A stretch of 35,557 bases of DNA, from assembly GCA_012839325.1 (NCBI GenBank), contig DUNQ01000052.1, forward strand, positions 1 through 35,557. The letters are read 5' to 3'. Both the position numbers and the translations under genes were made by a program. Under the pieces are notes generated by a model. The model was not told the DNA's origin. It made no database searches and worked only from the letters and a program-made list of their open reading frames with translations. Below, piece after piece: positions 8,777 to 16,693 of the stretch (position 1 is the first letter of the stretch; each line of letters opens with the position of its first letter). Source of the DNA: Candidatus Cloacimonadota bacterium (GTDB lineage Bacteria; Cloacimonadota; Cloacimonadia; Cloacimonadales; Cloacimonadaceae).

Positions 8777-9604
8777 ATGAGTTTGAAGGTAAAAGAGATT
8801 AATTTGGTAGAGGTTAGTTCTTGGGATAATGCGAGCTCAAAATGGATTGGATTAAAATATGATCCGGGGAGCGGTGTTGCTGATCTTTTAAAGCTGCAGG
8901 CATATAAGTCAGCAAGCGGTGAGGTGATGAGCAGTAAGCAGTTGAATGTGAACTGGGATAGTTTTAGCGACGGTACAAACACCACTTGCACTATATTTGG
9001 AGCGAGCTTGATTGCTACGTCGATAAAAAGCGTAAGACTCAGGTATAAGGTTCAAGTTGTGAGTGATGATCCAGATGTGGGTGACGTGGTTAGCGTTAGC
9101 GAAGACTATGCGTATATGATGGTCAAGATGGACTTTGGTGATAATTCGGTCGAAGACGATATTCCCAGCGTGGTGGATGGTGGTAAGTTGGAAGCAGAGT
9201 TGAGTGTTAAGTTTCCTTCTTTTACCAATGCGATGGTAGGGACGGATCTAGCGGAGACATTAGTAGAGTTTCACAAGAAAGCTAATTGGAGCGCGAGCTG
9301 GAAGCATCCTGACAATACTTCGGAATACATAACTATCGATAGCATTAAAACTGGGGCGGCGGGCAGCTCTACTGTTCCTGCTCATAGTGGGTTTGGTTCG
9401 ATTGTTGATTTGACGATGGTATTACCTGTTCTGAAAGACGGGACACATACATTAAAGATATTCTTTAAGTATTATAGCGGTAAGAGTTATGAAGTTCCGA
9501 CCACTATCAGTACAACGGCTAAAATCACGATTAACCAGGGCACTGTGGTTGCGACTGCATTTAGCCCGGATAGCACTGCAACAATCGACATTAACTTCAG
9601 TTAA
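8777..9604 (+). CDS. Beta-rich phage structural protein of unknown role
   Basis: A 275-residue protein introduced by hairpin cassette copy 2, whose AAGGAG serves as ribosome site. The sequence is rich in Ser, Thr, Val and Asp with short alternating strands and almost no helix (for example STVPAHSGFGSIVDLTMVLP and the C-terminal STATIDINFS), typical of tail or decoration proteins built from Ig-like or jelly-roll domains. Its place between portal and terminase does not settle head or tail. No specific family recognised. Confidence 0.7.
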   Translation: MSLKVKEINLVEVSSWDNASSKWIGLKYDPGSGVADLLKLQAYKSASGEVMSSKQLNVNWDSFSDGTNTTCTIFGASLIATSIKSVRLRYKVQVVSDDPDVGDVVSVSEDYAYMMVKMDFGDNSVEDDIPSVVDGGKLEAELSVKFPSFTNAMVGTDLAETLVEFHKKANWSASWKHPDNTSEYITIDSIKTGAAGSSTVPAHSGFGSIVDLTMVLPVLKDGTHTLKIFFKYYSGKSYEVPTTISTTAKITINQGTVVATAFSPDSTATIDINFS

Positions 9605-9609
9605 GAGAG

Positions 9610-9855
9610 ATGATATATAAAGGCAGACAGCTGATCGCAAGTAAATATAATGCCAGCGGGAAGAGGGTGTTTATCCCGCTGGCGATGCGTATCGGCGGCA
9701 AAGATTATGTGATTCCTTTTAGGTTGAAAAGGGCTGGTGTGCAGGTTCGTGATTTGGCGAGCTATTCTCCGGGCACAGAGTGCGTTGTGCGGCTGGATAT
9801 TGCAACTGAAGATGTGGTATATACGGAGCCGTTTGTATTGGACGGGGTGAACTGA
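9610..9855 (+). CDS. Small beta-rich phage protein of unknown function
   Basis: An 81-residue protein starting five bases after the previous stop, with a weak AAGAGAG site. It looks like a compact beta-barrel (short strands around GKRVFIPLAM and KDYVIPFRLK). Its TGA stop shares one base with the terminase ATG (TGATG, 9853-9857), so the two are translationally coupled. In many phages the gene just before the large terminase subunit encodes the small one, but this protein lacks the helix-turn-helix expected of a small terminase. I call it unknown. Confidence 0.62.
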   Translation: MIYKGRQLIASKYNASGKRVFIPLAMRIGGKDYVIPFRLKRAGVQVRDLASYSPGTECVVRLDIATEDVVYTEPFVLDGVN

Positions 9856-11111
9856 TGAATAGGTATATTGAGGTATTGGCGCCTTATATTCGTAAGGTGT
9901 TGTATCCATTTCAGTTGAAGTTTATCACGGATGATACGCGTTGGCGTATTGCTAACAAGAGTAGGCAGATAGGGTTTAGTTTTACAATTGGATTGGACGC
10001 TATAAGCGGTGCGTTGATTCGGAAGCGTAATCAGTTAATTGTTTCTGCGAGTAAGTATAATGCTGAGATAGTGCTGGATTATATCCGGGACCATCTGGAT
10101 GAGATGGGTATCTTGCCGGTGAAGGATAAAGCGGGTCTGATAGAATTTGACAACGGGTATTCTGTTCGGGTTTGTAGCACGAACTGGCGGACAGCGCGCG
10201 GGTTTAACGGTGATGTCTATTTTGATGAATTTGCTTTTACTATTCGTGATAATGAGATATGGAAGGCGATGGTGCCGAGTATCACGGCGGTTCAGGGGCG
10301 GGTGACGGTGATCAGTACGCCGAAGAGTCGCATTGATAAGTTTTGGCAGATTTGGAGTAATAAGAGCAAGAGGTGGAGCAAGCATTGTGTGTCGATACAT
10401 GATGCGAAAGCGGACGGGTTTCCTGTGGACATCGAGGAGTTGCGCGAGCTGTTTGACCCGGAGGAATTTGCGCAGGCTTATGAGTGTATTCCGCTGGATA
10501 CTTCAGAGAGTTATGTGCCTTATAACCTGATAGAGCCTTGCTTGTATGATCCGCTGAGTGATGCGTTTATCGAGCAGGTGAAGCTCTGGGATGCGAACAT
10601 GCCGTTGGTATATGGAGTGGATATCGGGCGCACGCGTGATGAGACGGCGGTTGCGGAGACTTTGCGCGATGGCAAGGTTGTGTGGAACACAACGATGAAA
10701 GAGTGGCATAAAATGCCTTTCAGAGAGCAGAAAACGAGGCTTACGGAGTTGCTCATGCAGTCGCAGTGTCAGATCATGGCGATTGATAAGGGCGGGATTG
10801 GGATGAATCTGCATGAGGATTTGAGCTTTAGGTTCCCGGCGAAGGTGCGTGGAGTGGGGTTCGCTCCGGCTGTGAAGGACAGACTGGCGAAGGGAATGAA
10901 GATTGCGTTTGAGGATAAATTGATTAGGATTCCAAATGATCCTAATTTGATCTCGCATATTTTGAGTATCAAGCGGACAGCGAATCGGACGAGTACATTT
11001 AGTTATAACGCTGATGATATGCTGCCGCATCATGGTGATAAGTTCTGGGCGCTGGCTTTGGCGTTGGATCATAGCATCACAAATCGTGAAATTCAGTTTA
11101 GGTTTATTTGA
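9855..11111 (+). CDS. Phage terminase large subunit, Mu gp28-like
   Basis: A 418-residue DNA-packaging motor. The ATPase domain has the adenine-region YPFQ at 17-20, a Walker-A variant KSRQIGFS (35-42), typical of gp28-type terminases in place of classic GxxxxGKT, and Walker B VYFDE with Asp124-Glu125, followed by the STP motif III. The C-terminal RNase-H-like nuclease starts at GVDIGRTRDETA with Asp256 and Asp262 as probable metal ligands and has a further acidic DKGG site. It would cut concatemeric or integrated phage DNA and pump it through the portal. The start overlaps the previous stop by one base. It lies 1.5 kb downstream of the portal, with no obvious small subunit. Confidence 0.88.
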   Translation: MNRYIEVLAPYIRKVLYPFQLKFITDDTRWRIANKSRQIGFSFTIGLDAISGALIRKRNQLIVSASKYNAEIVLDYIRDHLDEMGILPVKDKAGLIEFDNGYSVRVCSTNWRTARGFNGDVYFDEFAFTIRDNEIWKAMVPSITAVQGRVTVISTPKSRIDKFWQIWSNKSKRWSKHCVSIHDAKADGFPVDIEELRELFDPEEFAQAYECIPLDTSESYVPYNLIEPCLYDPLSDAFIEQVKLWDANMPLVYGVDIGRTRDETAVAETLRDGKVVWNTTMKEWHKMPFREQKTRLTELLMQSQCQIMAIDKGGIGMNLHEDLSFRFPAKVRGVGFAPAVKDRLAKGMKIAFEDKLIRIPNDPNLISHILSIKRTANRTSTFSYNADDMLPHHGDKFWALALALDHSITNREIQFRFI

Positions 11112-12707: not shown

Positions 12708-13064
12708 ATGAAGGTATATACTGATGTGACGACGCTTTCGAGGCTGTTTCCGCTGTTTAAAGAGGCGGGGATCGAGGGCGTTTTGACGGGTGATCTGGGG
12801 AAGATCAAGGATATGGATTTGCCGGATTTGGCGGGGGTTCTTTTGGAGAAGGGGAAGCTGCCGGAGATATGTGAGATCATTACTAAGAGTGATGTTTGTG
12901 AAGGTGAAGATGGTGAGGCGGTGGCGTGGGGTGAATGCTCGCTGATACAGTGTTTGGGGGTGTTTGTCCCTTTTGTGATCGATATCACCGTCGGGCTGAT
13001 AGGATTGAATCAGGCGGTGAGTCCGGGGAATCTCCAGGAAGTGAGCCTGGGAATATCTTCATGA
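12708..13064 (+). CDS. Tail-assembly chaperone (gpG-like), zero-frame product
   Basis: A 118-residue acidic, helical protein with AAGGAG and a nine-base gap to the start. Size, acidic helical character (LPDLAGVLLEKGKLPEICEI) and position one gene before the tape measure are those of tail-assembly chaperones, which coat the tape measure while the tube polymerises. As in phage lambda G/GT, a second frame opens at the 3-prime end: the -1 frame stays open from before 12935 to 13195, and a CCCTTTT heptamer at 12968-12974 is in register for a slip. A slip would replace residues 90-118 by 73 others, giving a 162-residue fusion. Separately, the stop overlaps an ATG as ATGA. Confidence 0.75.
   Translation: MKVYTDVTTLSRLFPLFKEAGIEGVLTGDLGKIKDMDLPDLAGVLLEKGKLPEICEIITKSDVCEGEDGEAVAWGECSLIQCLGVFVPFVIDITVGLIGLNQAVSPGNLQEVSLGISS
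12968..12974 (+). promoter_or_regulatory. Possible -1 ribosomal slippery site CCCTTTT
   Basis: In the zero frame it reads C CCT TTT, fitting the X XXY YYZ rule: both tRNAs can re-pair after a one-base backward slip (CCT to CCC, TTT to TTT). A small hairpin, GTGAT-CGAT-ATCAC, begins at the next base (12975-12988). That is closer than the usual 5-8 base spacer, so it would have to act differently or be irrelevant. Confidence 0.45.
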
Positions 13065-13195
13065 ATTTGAGGTATATCATGTGTCGGATCGGTGCTAATC
13101 CGAGTGAAATTGAAATTGATGAGGCTGTGGCTTTGGCTGAGCTTTATTATGAGGAGAGGGTGCAGGGAGTGTGTCCTCTTGTAGGTGCTACTTGA
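13061..13195 (+). CDS. Short downstream product: C-terminal half of a chaperone fusion or separate 44-residue protein
   Basis: Two readings are possible. As a separate gene, ATG 13061 overlaps the chaperone stop as ATGA, the coupling used elsewhere in this phage, and encodes 44 residues ending in an acidic helix (EIDEAVALAELYYEERVQ). As a -1 frameshift extension, the same frame is open back past 12935 and joins the chaperone at 12968-12974. The ribosome site before 13061 is poor, which favours either coupling or frameshifting. Its place between chaperone and tape measure is that of lambda T. Confidence 0.55.
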   Translation: MNLRYIMCRIGANPSEIEIDEAVALAELYYEERVQGVCPLVGAT

Positions 13196-13317
13196 GGTAC
13201 TTGTCTATAGCCTTGATGCCGGTCTTGCCGCCGTTTCGCACTCCAACCATTCCAAACTGGAAGAGAACAAACACGAGTGCTACCAAGAAAATGATGTATA
13301 GGATAAAGGCTAACATG
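13188..13317 (-). pseudogene. Small leftward membrane-protein ORF, apparently frameshifted
   Basis: On the minus strand AAGGAG precedes ATG 13317 by six bases. The first 19 residues are a transmembrane helix (MLAFILYIIFLVALVFVLF). In the actual frame the protein then turns into an unlikely Trp- and Arg-rich tail ending at 13147. Removing one G from the GGG at 13259-13261 instead gives a natural-looking basic tail, NGGKTGIKAIDKYLK, and a TAG at 13188-13190, for about 42 residues. A recent frameshift or a base error is therefore likely. It is the only leftward candidate gene among the late genes and sits just before the tape measure. Confidence 0.45.
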
Positions 13318-13376
13318 GTGATCTCCTTGTTTTTTTTATTCTATATACAATTTAAGTATATTATAAGGATATGCAA

Positions 13377-16300
13377 ATGGAAAATTCAAAACTTGTTGTA
13401 AAATTAGAGTTTAAAGGTAAAGAAGAGCTGCAACAGCTGATAGCTCAGATCGGGAAGAAGTATGATATCCCTGTGGATATCGACTTATCCACAGCTAAAC
13501 TGGGGGTTTTTAAAGAATTTGAGAACCGTTTTCAGAAACTATCTCAGACTGTAGTTGGCTTCAGCACTCATATGGGATTTGCTATTCAGGGCATCAAACA
13601 AATGTATTCTGTCCTACAAAAAGCTATTGGTCCTTTTATTAAGACATCAAGCGAGTTTGAACAGCTAAGGTTGCGTTTATTTAACCTTTATCAGGACACG
13701 GATAGGGCTACGGCGGCTTTTGAGAAATTTAGAAAGGTTGCTCTTGAGACTCCGGCTACATTGCGTGAAGTGGTGGAGGCGGGTGCGAACCTTAAGGCGT
13801 TTGGGCTGGATGCTGAGGATGTGCTTGAGAGTGTGCAGGACTTGGCGGCATTTATGGGGATCAATGTGGTTGAAGCTGCAAACGCCGTGGGGCGTGCCTT
13901 CGCGGGTGGTGCGGGTGCTGCGATGATGTTACGAGATCGAGGAATCCTGGAATTGATACGGAGTTTTAATGGGATTGATGATCTGAGCAAGCTGACGCTT
14001 CCAGAATTCAGAGAGGCAATGCTTTCCACGTTCAAGAGCACAGAGACGGGGATAGCCGGTTCATCTGCGAGAATGGCGGATTCTTATGCCGGGGCGATGG
14101 CTCAGATGCAAGATGCTATGGAAACGCTCTATGCGGTGGTTGGAGATCACTTTACGCCGGCTATTGCGGGGGCTGCGAGGGTTTTGACCAGATTTGTTGA
14201 AAAGCTTGCAGGGGCGAAATCCGGAGCGGAGGCTGTGAAGGCGTCCCTGACATCTCAGCGGGTGGAATTTGAGCGCTTAGTGATGGTATATAAAGACTTG
14301 CATCACAATCAGAGCCGTAGCACGGAAGACAATATCAAGTATCAGAAAACGATTAATGATTTGATGAATAAGTATCCTAATTATTTCAAGAAGATTGACT
14401 TGGAAAAAGGGGCTTGGAAGGACATTTCGAAGGCTATCGATTCGGCACGAGTGAGTTTGCAAGAATGGATTAACATCAAGATTAAAGAAGCCATTATTGA
14501 AGAGAAAAAAGATGAGATGGTGAAGCTGGTCAAGAAAGAAAGTGATGCGACATTTGAATTAGAAACTCTGCTTGCTGAATTTGAGGCGGGTACTAAAAGC
14601 CGCACAATGCAAGTAGTTGCGGCTCCCGACCCGTTGTCTCCGCACTATCGGGCAGATCGACCGCGTTATGTCTCAAAAGAATCATGGGATTCTAAGCGTG
14701 AGAAAAAGCTTCAGGCAAACATCGCAAAATATCAGTCTGATTTAAATGAAATCAATGAAGAGATTGCTCGTAGAGTGGCAATGATTGCGGGTGTGGAGGT
14801 TGAGGAGCCAGGGGGTGGCGGCGGTGGAAGTAAATCGGGCGCGACCGGCAGGACGGAATTTCCTCAGGCTGAGATTGATTCTATCATGAGAGAGATCGAG
14901 GCATATCGTGTGCTACGTGAAGCTAATTATAATGAGGAATTAGCGCAAATCGAGACATTAAAGCAGGAGTATTCATTAAAACTTAAGGCGGTGGCGGGTA
15001 ATGCCGATGCAGAGCGGGATTTGGTGGAGAAAAGAGATAGAGAGATTGCTGAAATCGAGAATAATATGAAAGAGCAAAATGAGAAGGATGAGGCGGCGCA
15101 TTATGATAAGCTAAAGTTTTATGCAGAGGGATATTATGATTGGAAGGCAGGACGGATCAGAGAGGAGGCGGAGCGGAGTGGATCGCCTCAGTCTTGGGTG
15201 GATGATCAAATGGCGCAGTTAGAGCGTGAGCAGGAAGAGTGGGACAGGCGGGCTGTCCTGGCTTTCGAGGAGAAATATGAGACTGAGATGATGCATCTGG
15301 GGCAATTGCGTGATCTTGGGCTGGCGACGTATTCAGAGGTTGCGGATAAGTCCTGGGAATACTATCGCTCTCTGAAGGCGATTTTAGAAGCGGATGGGGA
15401 GCTTTCAGAGGAGGAGAAAGAGCTTTTGGCGATCTATCAGAAACGGGCGCAGGGAGCGCAATTGGCGGTGAATCGTGAGAGTGATTTGGCTCGGTATTAT
15501 AATGAAATAAAGTTTTTGGATGAGGGCTATTATGATTGGAAAAAGGCGCGCATTGAGGAGGATGTGCGGACAATGGAGCTGTCTGAGGAGCAGAAATTCG
15601 AGCTGGTAAAGGCTCGACTGGATGAGCTGAAGCGTGAATTAGGGATATTTGAAGATGAAAAAAGAGATAAGACACTGTTTGGGCACATGTTGGATCGTTT
15701 GGGGGTTCCGAAAGAAGAGCAGAATAAAATTGAAGGTGCTTTTCGAGATATGGCTAATCGGATTAGTGGGATATTTAGTCAGATGTATAACAATCTTGGT
15801 TTGCAGAGGGATAAGTCTCTGAAGGATTTGGAGAAGCGGGCTAAGCAGGAGCGGAAAACTGATGTATGGTTGGCGAAGGAAAAGGAGCGGATCAATGAGG
15901 AATATGAGAAGAAACAGCGCGATATGAAACGCTCGGAGCAGAAGATGCAACTCGCGTCTGCAACGGTGAATACATTAGAGGGGATTACGAATGCATTGAC
16001 GATTAAGCCGGCTTGGTTGGCGCCGGTTGTTGCTGGGGCTATGGGGGCTCTGGGGTTTGCGCAGGTGAAGTTGATCGCGGAACAGAAGTTTGCAACCGGT
16101 GGGCTTTTCAGGGGGAAGGGGAGCACTACTTCGGACTCAAATATCATCGCGGTGTCTGATCATGAGTATATTGTTTCTGCAGATAGAGTTAAGCAGTTTG
16201 GAGTGGGGTTCTTTGATGCGCTGAACTTTGGGGGTGCAGAGCAGATTAGGAAGGCTTTGAGTGGGTTTCAGATGCCGGTACTGGCGCCGGTTGCTGTGGC

Positions 16301-16451
16301 TCCCAGGACGGGTGGGTTTGCGACTGGTGGGCATGTTGGGGCTGCTTCGGATCGTGTGCGGGATGTGCAGATGAATGTTGTTCTGAAATGTGACGGAAAA
16401 GAACTTGCGCGGGCAGTTGCGAGAGGAAATAAAAAAATAATTTCTACTTGA
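13377..16451 (+). CDS. Tail tape measure protein
   Basis: A 1024-residue protein. ATG 13377 is preferred over 13371 because AAGGA ends at 13369 and gives a seven-base gap. An N-terminal tape-measure domain contains SEFEQLRLRLFNL, then VVEAGANLKAFGLDAEDVLE and GRAFAGGAGAAMMLRDRGI. Long charged coiled coils occupy about residues 270-860; a Gly-rich hinge lies near 480. Hydrophobic segments follow near 870-900, and the C-terminus is Gly-rich. Two related blocks begin near residues 575 and 707, each with EGYYDWK. At about 1.5 angstrom per residue it would set a tail roughly 150 nm long. It is the last phage gene seen; no distal tail genes follow. Confidence 0.9.
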   Translation: MENSKLVVKLEFKGKEELQQLIAQIGKKYDIPVDIDLSTAKLGVFKEFENRFQKLSQTVVGFSTHMGFAIQGIKQMYSVLQKAIGPFIKTSSEFEQLRLRLFNLYQDTDRATAAFEKFRKVALETPATLREVVEAGANLKAFGLDAEDVLESVQDLAAFMGINVVEAANAVGRAFAGGAGAAMMLRDRGILELIRSFNGIDDLSKLTLPEFREAMLSTFKSTETGIAGSSARMADSYAGAMAQMQDAMETLYAVVGDHFTPAIAGAARVLTRFVEKLAGAKSGAEAVKASLTSQRVEFERLVMVYKDLHHNQSRSTEDNIKYQKTINDLMNKYPNYFKKIDLEKGAWKDISKAIDSARVSLQEWINIKIKEAIIEEKKDEMVKLVKKESDATFELETLLAEFEAGTKSRTMQVVAAPDPLSPHYRADRPRYVSKESWDSKREKKLQANIAKYQSDLNEINEEIARRVAMIAGVEVEEPGGGGGGSKSGATGRTEFPQAEIDSIMREIEAYRVLREANYNEELAQIETLKQEYSLKLKAVAGNADAERDLVEKRDREIAEIENNMKEQNEKDEAAHYDKLKFYAEGYYDWKAGRIREEAERSGSPQSWVDDQMAQLEREQEEWDRRAVLAFEEKYETEMMHLGQLRDLGLATYSEVADKSWEYYRSLKAILEADGELSEEEKELLAIYQKRAQGAQLAVNRESDLARYYNEIKFLDEGYYDWKKARIEEDVRTMELSEEQKFELVKARLDELKRELGIFEDEKRDKTLFGHMLDRLGVPKEEQNKIEGAFRDMANRISGIFSQMYNNLGLQRDKSLKDLEKRAKQERKTDVWLAKEKERINEEYEKKQRDMKRSEQKMQLASATVNTLEGITNALTIKPAWLAPVVAGAMGALGFAQVKLIAEQKFATGGLFRGKGSTTSDSNIIAVSDHEYIVSADRVKQFGVGFFDALNFGGAEQIRKALSGFQMPVLAPVAVAPRTGGFATGGHVGAASDRVRDVQMNVVLKCDGKELARAVARGNKKIIST

Positions 16452-16457
16452 ATGTTT

Positions 16458-16556
16458 CCAAATGGGTTGACAAATTGACAGGCGGTTTGGTAAGGTGGTG
16501 ATAACTATGGGGCGTTATTTCCAAAGGGGTTGTCCAAAGTGACCAAAGGGGTTGTC
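16458..16556 (+). repeat. Three copies of a 14-bp sequence at the prophage-chromosome boundary
   Basis: CCAAATGGGTTGAC (16458-16471) is followed by CCAAAGGGGTTGTC at 16521-16534 and 16543-16556, the last two 22 bases apart and identical. A degenerate half copy (CCAAAGTGAC) lies between them. This noncoding stretch begins six bases after the last phage gene. Repeated protein-binding-site-like units at an element end recall transposase sites of Mu-type phages, but operators or an attachment region are also possible. Confidence 0.65.
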
Positions 16557-16570
16557 GCGGGATAACATGC

Positions 16571-16599
16571 TTTAGATATCACGTTATTTAGATTATACT
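16571..16599 (+). promoter_or_regulatory. Candidate promoter of the EF-G-like gene cluster
   Basis: TTTAGA (16571-16576) and TATACT (16594-16599) are 17 bases apart, about 95 bases before the EF-G-like start. A perfect TTGACA at 16611-16616 lacks a good -10 at 16-18 bases. Either could initiate transcription of the downstream cluster. Confidence 0.4.
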
Positions 16600-16693
16600 A
16601 AACAAAAGCATTGACACCTATCAAGCTATGAAAAAGATTGTCCATAAAGGAATAAAAATGTTTAAATTATGACATTAATAGATGAGGAAAAAC

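Follow-up and report, generated by a model that had tools for sequence, protein, structure and literature searches.

A putative -1 frameshifted tail assembly chaperone gene, with a slip site that appears to have moved, in prophages of the phylum Cloacimonadota

The prophage locus and its overlapping frames

The window (the whole stretch of DNA analysed, 35,557 nucleotides) corresponds to contig 42 in the genome of a Cloacimonadota bacterium. Phage genes surround the gene under study and host genes follow beyond the tape measure gene, and the window was therefore assigned to a prophage (Table 1). The tape measure gene was recognized by PHROG tape measure families (E down to 2.8e-11) and by Pfam TMP_3 (2.6e-9, slightly under the curated cut-off), and directly upstream of it lies a small open reading frame (ORF), which begins with ATG behind an AAAGGAG and ends with TGA at 13062-13064. 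A second frame, shifted by -1, overlaps its end. At CCCTTTT, the 0-frame codons are GTC CCT TTT and the register is C_CCT_TTT, such that a slip would join 89 residues of the first frame to 73 of the second, with the junction ...VPF-CDRYH... and the last 29 residues of the 118-aa form replaced. The sequence-only reading that drew attention to the locus had proposed a frameshift at this heptamer; its coordinates for both frames, the heptamer and the ATGA were correct to the base, and codon reading bore out the exact X_XXY_YYZ register as well as the 162-residue fusion.

Table 1. Coordinates of the features at the locus, in window positions
Feature	Position	Strand	Remark
CI-like repressor	1184
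XkdF-like protease	2571
Capsid-like protein	3255
Portal	7340
Terminase	9855
0-frame ORF, 118 aa, stop TGA	12708..13064	+	short form, putative tail assembly chaperone (gpG-like)
Whole open -1 frame	12935..13195	+	from the ORF list
T_TTG_GGG (TTTGGGG)	12953..12959	+	second in-register heptamer, rejected
SD-like GGGGGTG	12956..12962	+	possible stimulator, 5 nt upstream of the heptamer
Slippery heptamer C_CCT_TTT	12968..12974	+	in register; same column as T_TTT_TTY elsewhere
-1 frame extension, 73 aa + stop	12974..13195	+	putative T-like domain, conserved among homologs
GTGATCGATATCAC hairpin (GTGAT/ATCAC stem)	12975..12988	+	unsupported
ATGA, 0-frame stop overlapping -1-frame ATG	13061..13064	+	possible reinitiation start, 44-aa product
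Tape measure protein gene	13371..16451	+	PHROG tape measure families, Pfam TMP_3
Host genes EF-G, YebC, RsmB	past tape measure

Slip column and -1 frame in the relatives

Relatives were searched with a profile of six fusions over 125 genomes of the phylum Cloacimonadota. As a result, relatives of the 118-aa ORF were found in 15 of these genomes, and scans of IMG/VR added only one, the contig L059 (L069 is the same contig), which led to a family of 19 loci (18 genome loci and the viral contig), with all relatives being draft assemblies. In most homologous loci a tape-measure-like ORF is found downstream of the gene; in G055 and G005, the tape measure does not adjoin the chaperone-like gene. Some loci are imperfect: G030 and G019b are without an intact first domain and are both remnant-like, G001:C67 contains N runs, and G010:C137 has a rearranged copy of the region. 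The conclusion is unchanged after removing these four. In L068 (G010:C137:5000-15000), a tape-measure start fragment is found ahead of the second chaperone copy (9555-9974), so the duplicate of the chaperone region in G010 appears to be rearranged or misassembled. In addition, EF-G, the host neighbour in the window, is also found in G001:C6 (L063 7953-9005), where a remnant -1 domain and an antisense gene (MALAISPRDG...) adjoin it; G010:C137 has a similar antisense gene.

Other features recur around the gene. On the minus strand, between the chaperone and tape measure genes, an ORF for a 42-aa membrane protein (13188-13316) has a strong AAGGAG site and overlaps the 3' end of the -1 frame; comparable antisense ORFs with SD sites are found at the equivalent position in two loci of G010, in G001, G030, and G021, and probably in G055. 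The region to the right of the tape measure is without tail-tip genes, and the host gene that comes right after the tape measure differs between genomes, with EF-G in the window's genome (G000), a YfhO-like gene in G010:C104, and that of the glycine cleavage P-protein in G021. Just past it (region 16452-16682), tandem 14-mers are common to these three, CCAAAGGGGTTGTC occurring in the window at 16521-16534 and 16543-16556 and TCAAAACGGCTGTC twice in G021. The arrangement resembles one end of a transposing element.

An in-register X_XXY_YYZ heptamer occupies one and the same alignment column in 18/18 genome loci and in L059. Among the genome loci, 12 have TTTTTTT or TTTTTTC, four have CCCTTTT (the window clade), and two (G060 and G030) have CCCTTTTTTG, which holds both C_CCT_TTT and T_TTT_TTG; the heptamer of the viral contig is TTTTTTT. 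Only one column is invariant in the alignment of 14 fusions, that of the slip-site Phe. Given the amino acids, the product probability of the synonymous choices fitting the heptamer is ~1e-13 (16 loci), a value overstated as far as the lineages share ancestry, the loci being not fully independent. The conservation of the heptamer at this column is far beyond chance. No X_XXY_YYZ heptamer other than CCCTTTT is shared by every locus of the window clade. The other in-register heptamer of the window, TTTGGGG, was rejected as a slip site, as it is present only in G000 and G001 and absent from G010, G060, G030, and G021.

The -1 frame runs open beyond the 0-frame stop in every locus, and the C-terminal domain that it encodes, with the motif N(P/I)F..L...G....(I/L)DEA, is conserved in nearly all of them. 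Conservation extends to the part upstream of 13061 (CDRYHRRADRIE..), where the pattern of substitutions is informative as well: between G000 and G010a, changes at -1-frame third positions amount to 12/27 from the heptamer to 13061, versus 4/59 for the corresponding 0-frame position in the region ahead of the heptamer (Fisher p 9e-5), with the test being weaker in other pairs (p 0.014 to 0.25). Judged from these comparisons, the -1 frame is coding sequence, including the stretch upstream of 13061. Two observations had been named beforehand as speaking against a frameshift, stops in the -1 frame and loss of the heptamer with the downstream ORF retained. From the heptamer to the conserved C-terminal domain, the -1 frame is free of stops in all relatives, and the heptamer is never lost where the ORF is kept, with T_TTT_TTY or CCCTTTTTTG present wherever CCCTTTT is not. 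The frameshift reading is thus strongly supported by the heptamer column in 19 loci together with the conserved open -1 frame.

Competing readings and the means of slippage

It is scarcely conceivable that the two frames represent a formerly continuous gene split by a real or an assembly indel, i.e., a pseudogene. Although prophage regions decay, and the loci of G030, G019b, and G001:C6 look degraded, the same -1 arrangement recurs in 15 genomes and the viral contig, always at one column, and a relative with a single continuous frame in place of this arrangement was not found among them. The fusion could also be made by slippage of the polymerase instead of the ribosome, and the T_TTT_TTT of many relatives and the T9 run of G021 might favour this there. 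However, CCC in the window clade is followed by a run of just four T, shorter than polymerase slippage is known to need, in several relatives a C comes after six T, and the codon register for a tandem slip is kept at all sites; we consider a transcriptional origin to be extremely unlikely.

The remaining alternative, put forward together with the frameshift, is that the downstream frame holds a gene of its own, 44 residues long and translated by termination-reinitiation at the ATGA with no frameshift involved. Throughout the wider window clade, including G021, TCTTCATGA at the ATGA is identical (7/7 loci); other lineages are without the ATGA, the one in G005 being an unrelated coincidence, and have W, R, Y, or L in place of its M. 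Against such a gene, the SD before the ATG at 13061 is weak (-4.2 kcal/mol), ahead of this ATG the -1 frame already shows conservation and coding-type substitutions, and ATG, GTG, and TTG are all absent from the -1 frame up to and into the domain in G055, G038, G044, and G010c, others having no start near the domain. Because these four relatives are without any start codon in the -1 frame, ATGA coupling is ruled out, on the alignments at hand, as the general mechanism of the family, and we regard this explanation of the locus as very unlikely. What may be retained from it is an additional route in the window clade, leading to a free 44-aa product. A scenario in which this clade would make three products (short chaperone, frameshift fusion, and free 44-aa domain) and would have re-founded its slip site upstream via CCCTTTTTTG is tentative and, on balance, rather doubtful.

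Regarding the preferred reading, i.e., ribosomal -1 frameshifting, CCCTTTT had been thought unusual as a bacterial slip site. This does not hold, since it is a demonstrated motif in E. coli: in an assay of all 64 heptamers, C_CC.U_UU.U is listed with those exceeding 0.10% when no stimulator is present, U_UU.U_UU.Y is likewise an efficient motif, and the H_HH.U_UU.Y class ranks with the most efficient (PMC4066793). Both CCCTTTT and TTTTTTY fit this class. In the G000 genome (~95% complete), only tRNA-Pro UGG and CGG, and no Pro-GGG, were present among the tRNAs read, a reading that covered part of the tRNA matches. Because no GGG tRNA-Pro was among these, it is suggestive that CCU is probably read by tRNA-Pro UGG, with a weak third pair.

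As for stimulators, the hairpin noted directly after the heptamer does have its stem, but its stability is not above that of shuffles and the stem is broken in G060 and G030; it was thus rejected as not credible in this role. A search for conserved downstream RNA structures, longer ones included, found none. The GGGGGTG upstream of the heptamer forms the strongest anti-SD duplex in the window ORF (-12.2 kcal/mol), and an SD-like segment precedes the heptamer in nearly all loci (mean rank 0.08 versus the rest of the ORF, 18 loci). Given the encoded protein, this segment is only modestly unusual (p ~0.13 for the window, median p 0.135). GGGGGTG is the best candidate stimulator, a better one than the hairpin, and as such is unproven.

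Proposed function, probable site turnover, and comparison with known systems

The position before the tape measure, the size, the mostly alpha fold of the AlphaFold2 model (pLDDT 84, with helix 79-103 spanning the slip residue), and the two-form architecture suggest a tail-chaperone role. The initial assignment as tail assembly chaperone therefore stands as regards synteny and architecture, but not by homology to a named family: with the window protein as query, Pfam and PHROG gave no match, and over 14 family members none that was consistent, a PDB sequence search and tblastn against 50,697 phage records gave no match, and Foldseek found nothing significant (best viral E 0.14; chaperone-annotated entries weak, about E 0.66-1.5). 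Taken together, this is very probably a phage gene for a tail assembly chaperone of the lambda G/GT type, with two forms made via a -1 frameshift, a class reportedly described by Xu, Hendrix, and Duda in 2004. We infer that slippage takes place in the cell at a rate at which most ribosomes would make the 118-aa protein, that the upstream SD-like element would stimulate it, and that the products act as chaperones. In a minority of ribosomes, tRNA-Pro (from CCU to CCC) and tRNA-Phe (from UUU to UUU) would re-pair one base back at C_CCU_UUU, and translation would continue into the 162-aa fusion with its second conserved domain. The short form would then coat the tape measure and the long form would recruit the tail tube protein.

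The distribution of heptamers also points to a history of the site. In the tree, the CCCTTTT clade (99/96) is placed inside a group (node 100/100) with CCCTTTTTTG and T-run relatives, and in the ungapped alignment of G060 and G110, the T_TTT_TTG of the former falls on the T_TTT_TTT of the latter. In the window, the last codon of this old site is GTG, so the T-run site is lost and C_CCT_TTT, one codon upstream, is left. T_TTT_TTY is probably the ancestral site. In the direction of change that we infer, CCC would have arisen ahead of the T-run site, giving the two-site CCCTTTTTTG state of G060 and G030, and the old site would then have been lost (TTG to GTG), by which the slip seems to have shifted upstream by one codon in the window clade. 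The series T_TTT_TTY, CCCTTTTTTG, C_CCT_TTT would thus capture the turnover of a frameshift site while the need for the shift stays. With these loci, the classic recoding system gains an unnamed putative chaperone family, invisible to databases, from a phylum most of which is uncultured, and the profile of the family can be used to find tail genes in Cloacimonadota prophages.

Similar slip motifs are found in other systems. The G/T tail chaperone gene of E. coli phage 9g also has a C-then-T slip motif, CCCUUUUUUU, but a -2 shift is reported there (PMC4276943), unlike the -1 that register and frame give here. The slip site of West Nile virus is C_CCU_UUU, the heptamer of the window, and some related flaviviruses have U_UUU_UUU (PMC11507841), the same pair of alternatives as in the Cloacimonadota family; however, this RNA virus is eukaryotic, has a downstream RNA structure, and shares no descent with the family. 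The closest parallel is the lambda G/GT system and the wider class of -1 frameshifted tail chaperones (summarised in PMC5009743). As in this class, a small gene lies directly before the tape measure, the -1 slip is at an X_XXY_YYZ near the end of the first frame, and a longer minority product with a second domain is predicted. The differences from lambda G/GT are the host phylum, the lack of a detectable sequence or fold match, the heptamer (C_CCT_TTT or T_TTT_TTY versus GGGAAAG in lambda), and the possible extra ATGA start in the window clade. Because library, PDB, and fold searches give no independent support for the chaperone role, the claim that the gene works like lambda G/GT is much firmer than any claim of descent. 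The gene almost certainly yields two proteins by this recoding mode, which other phages are known to use and which has been kept in this little-studied phylum, even after the apparent move of the slip site by one codon.
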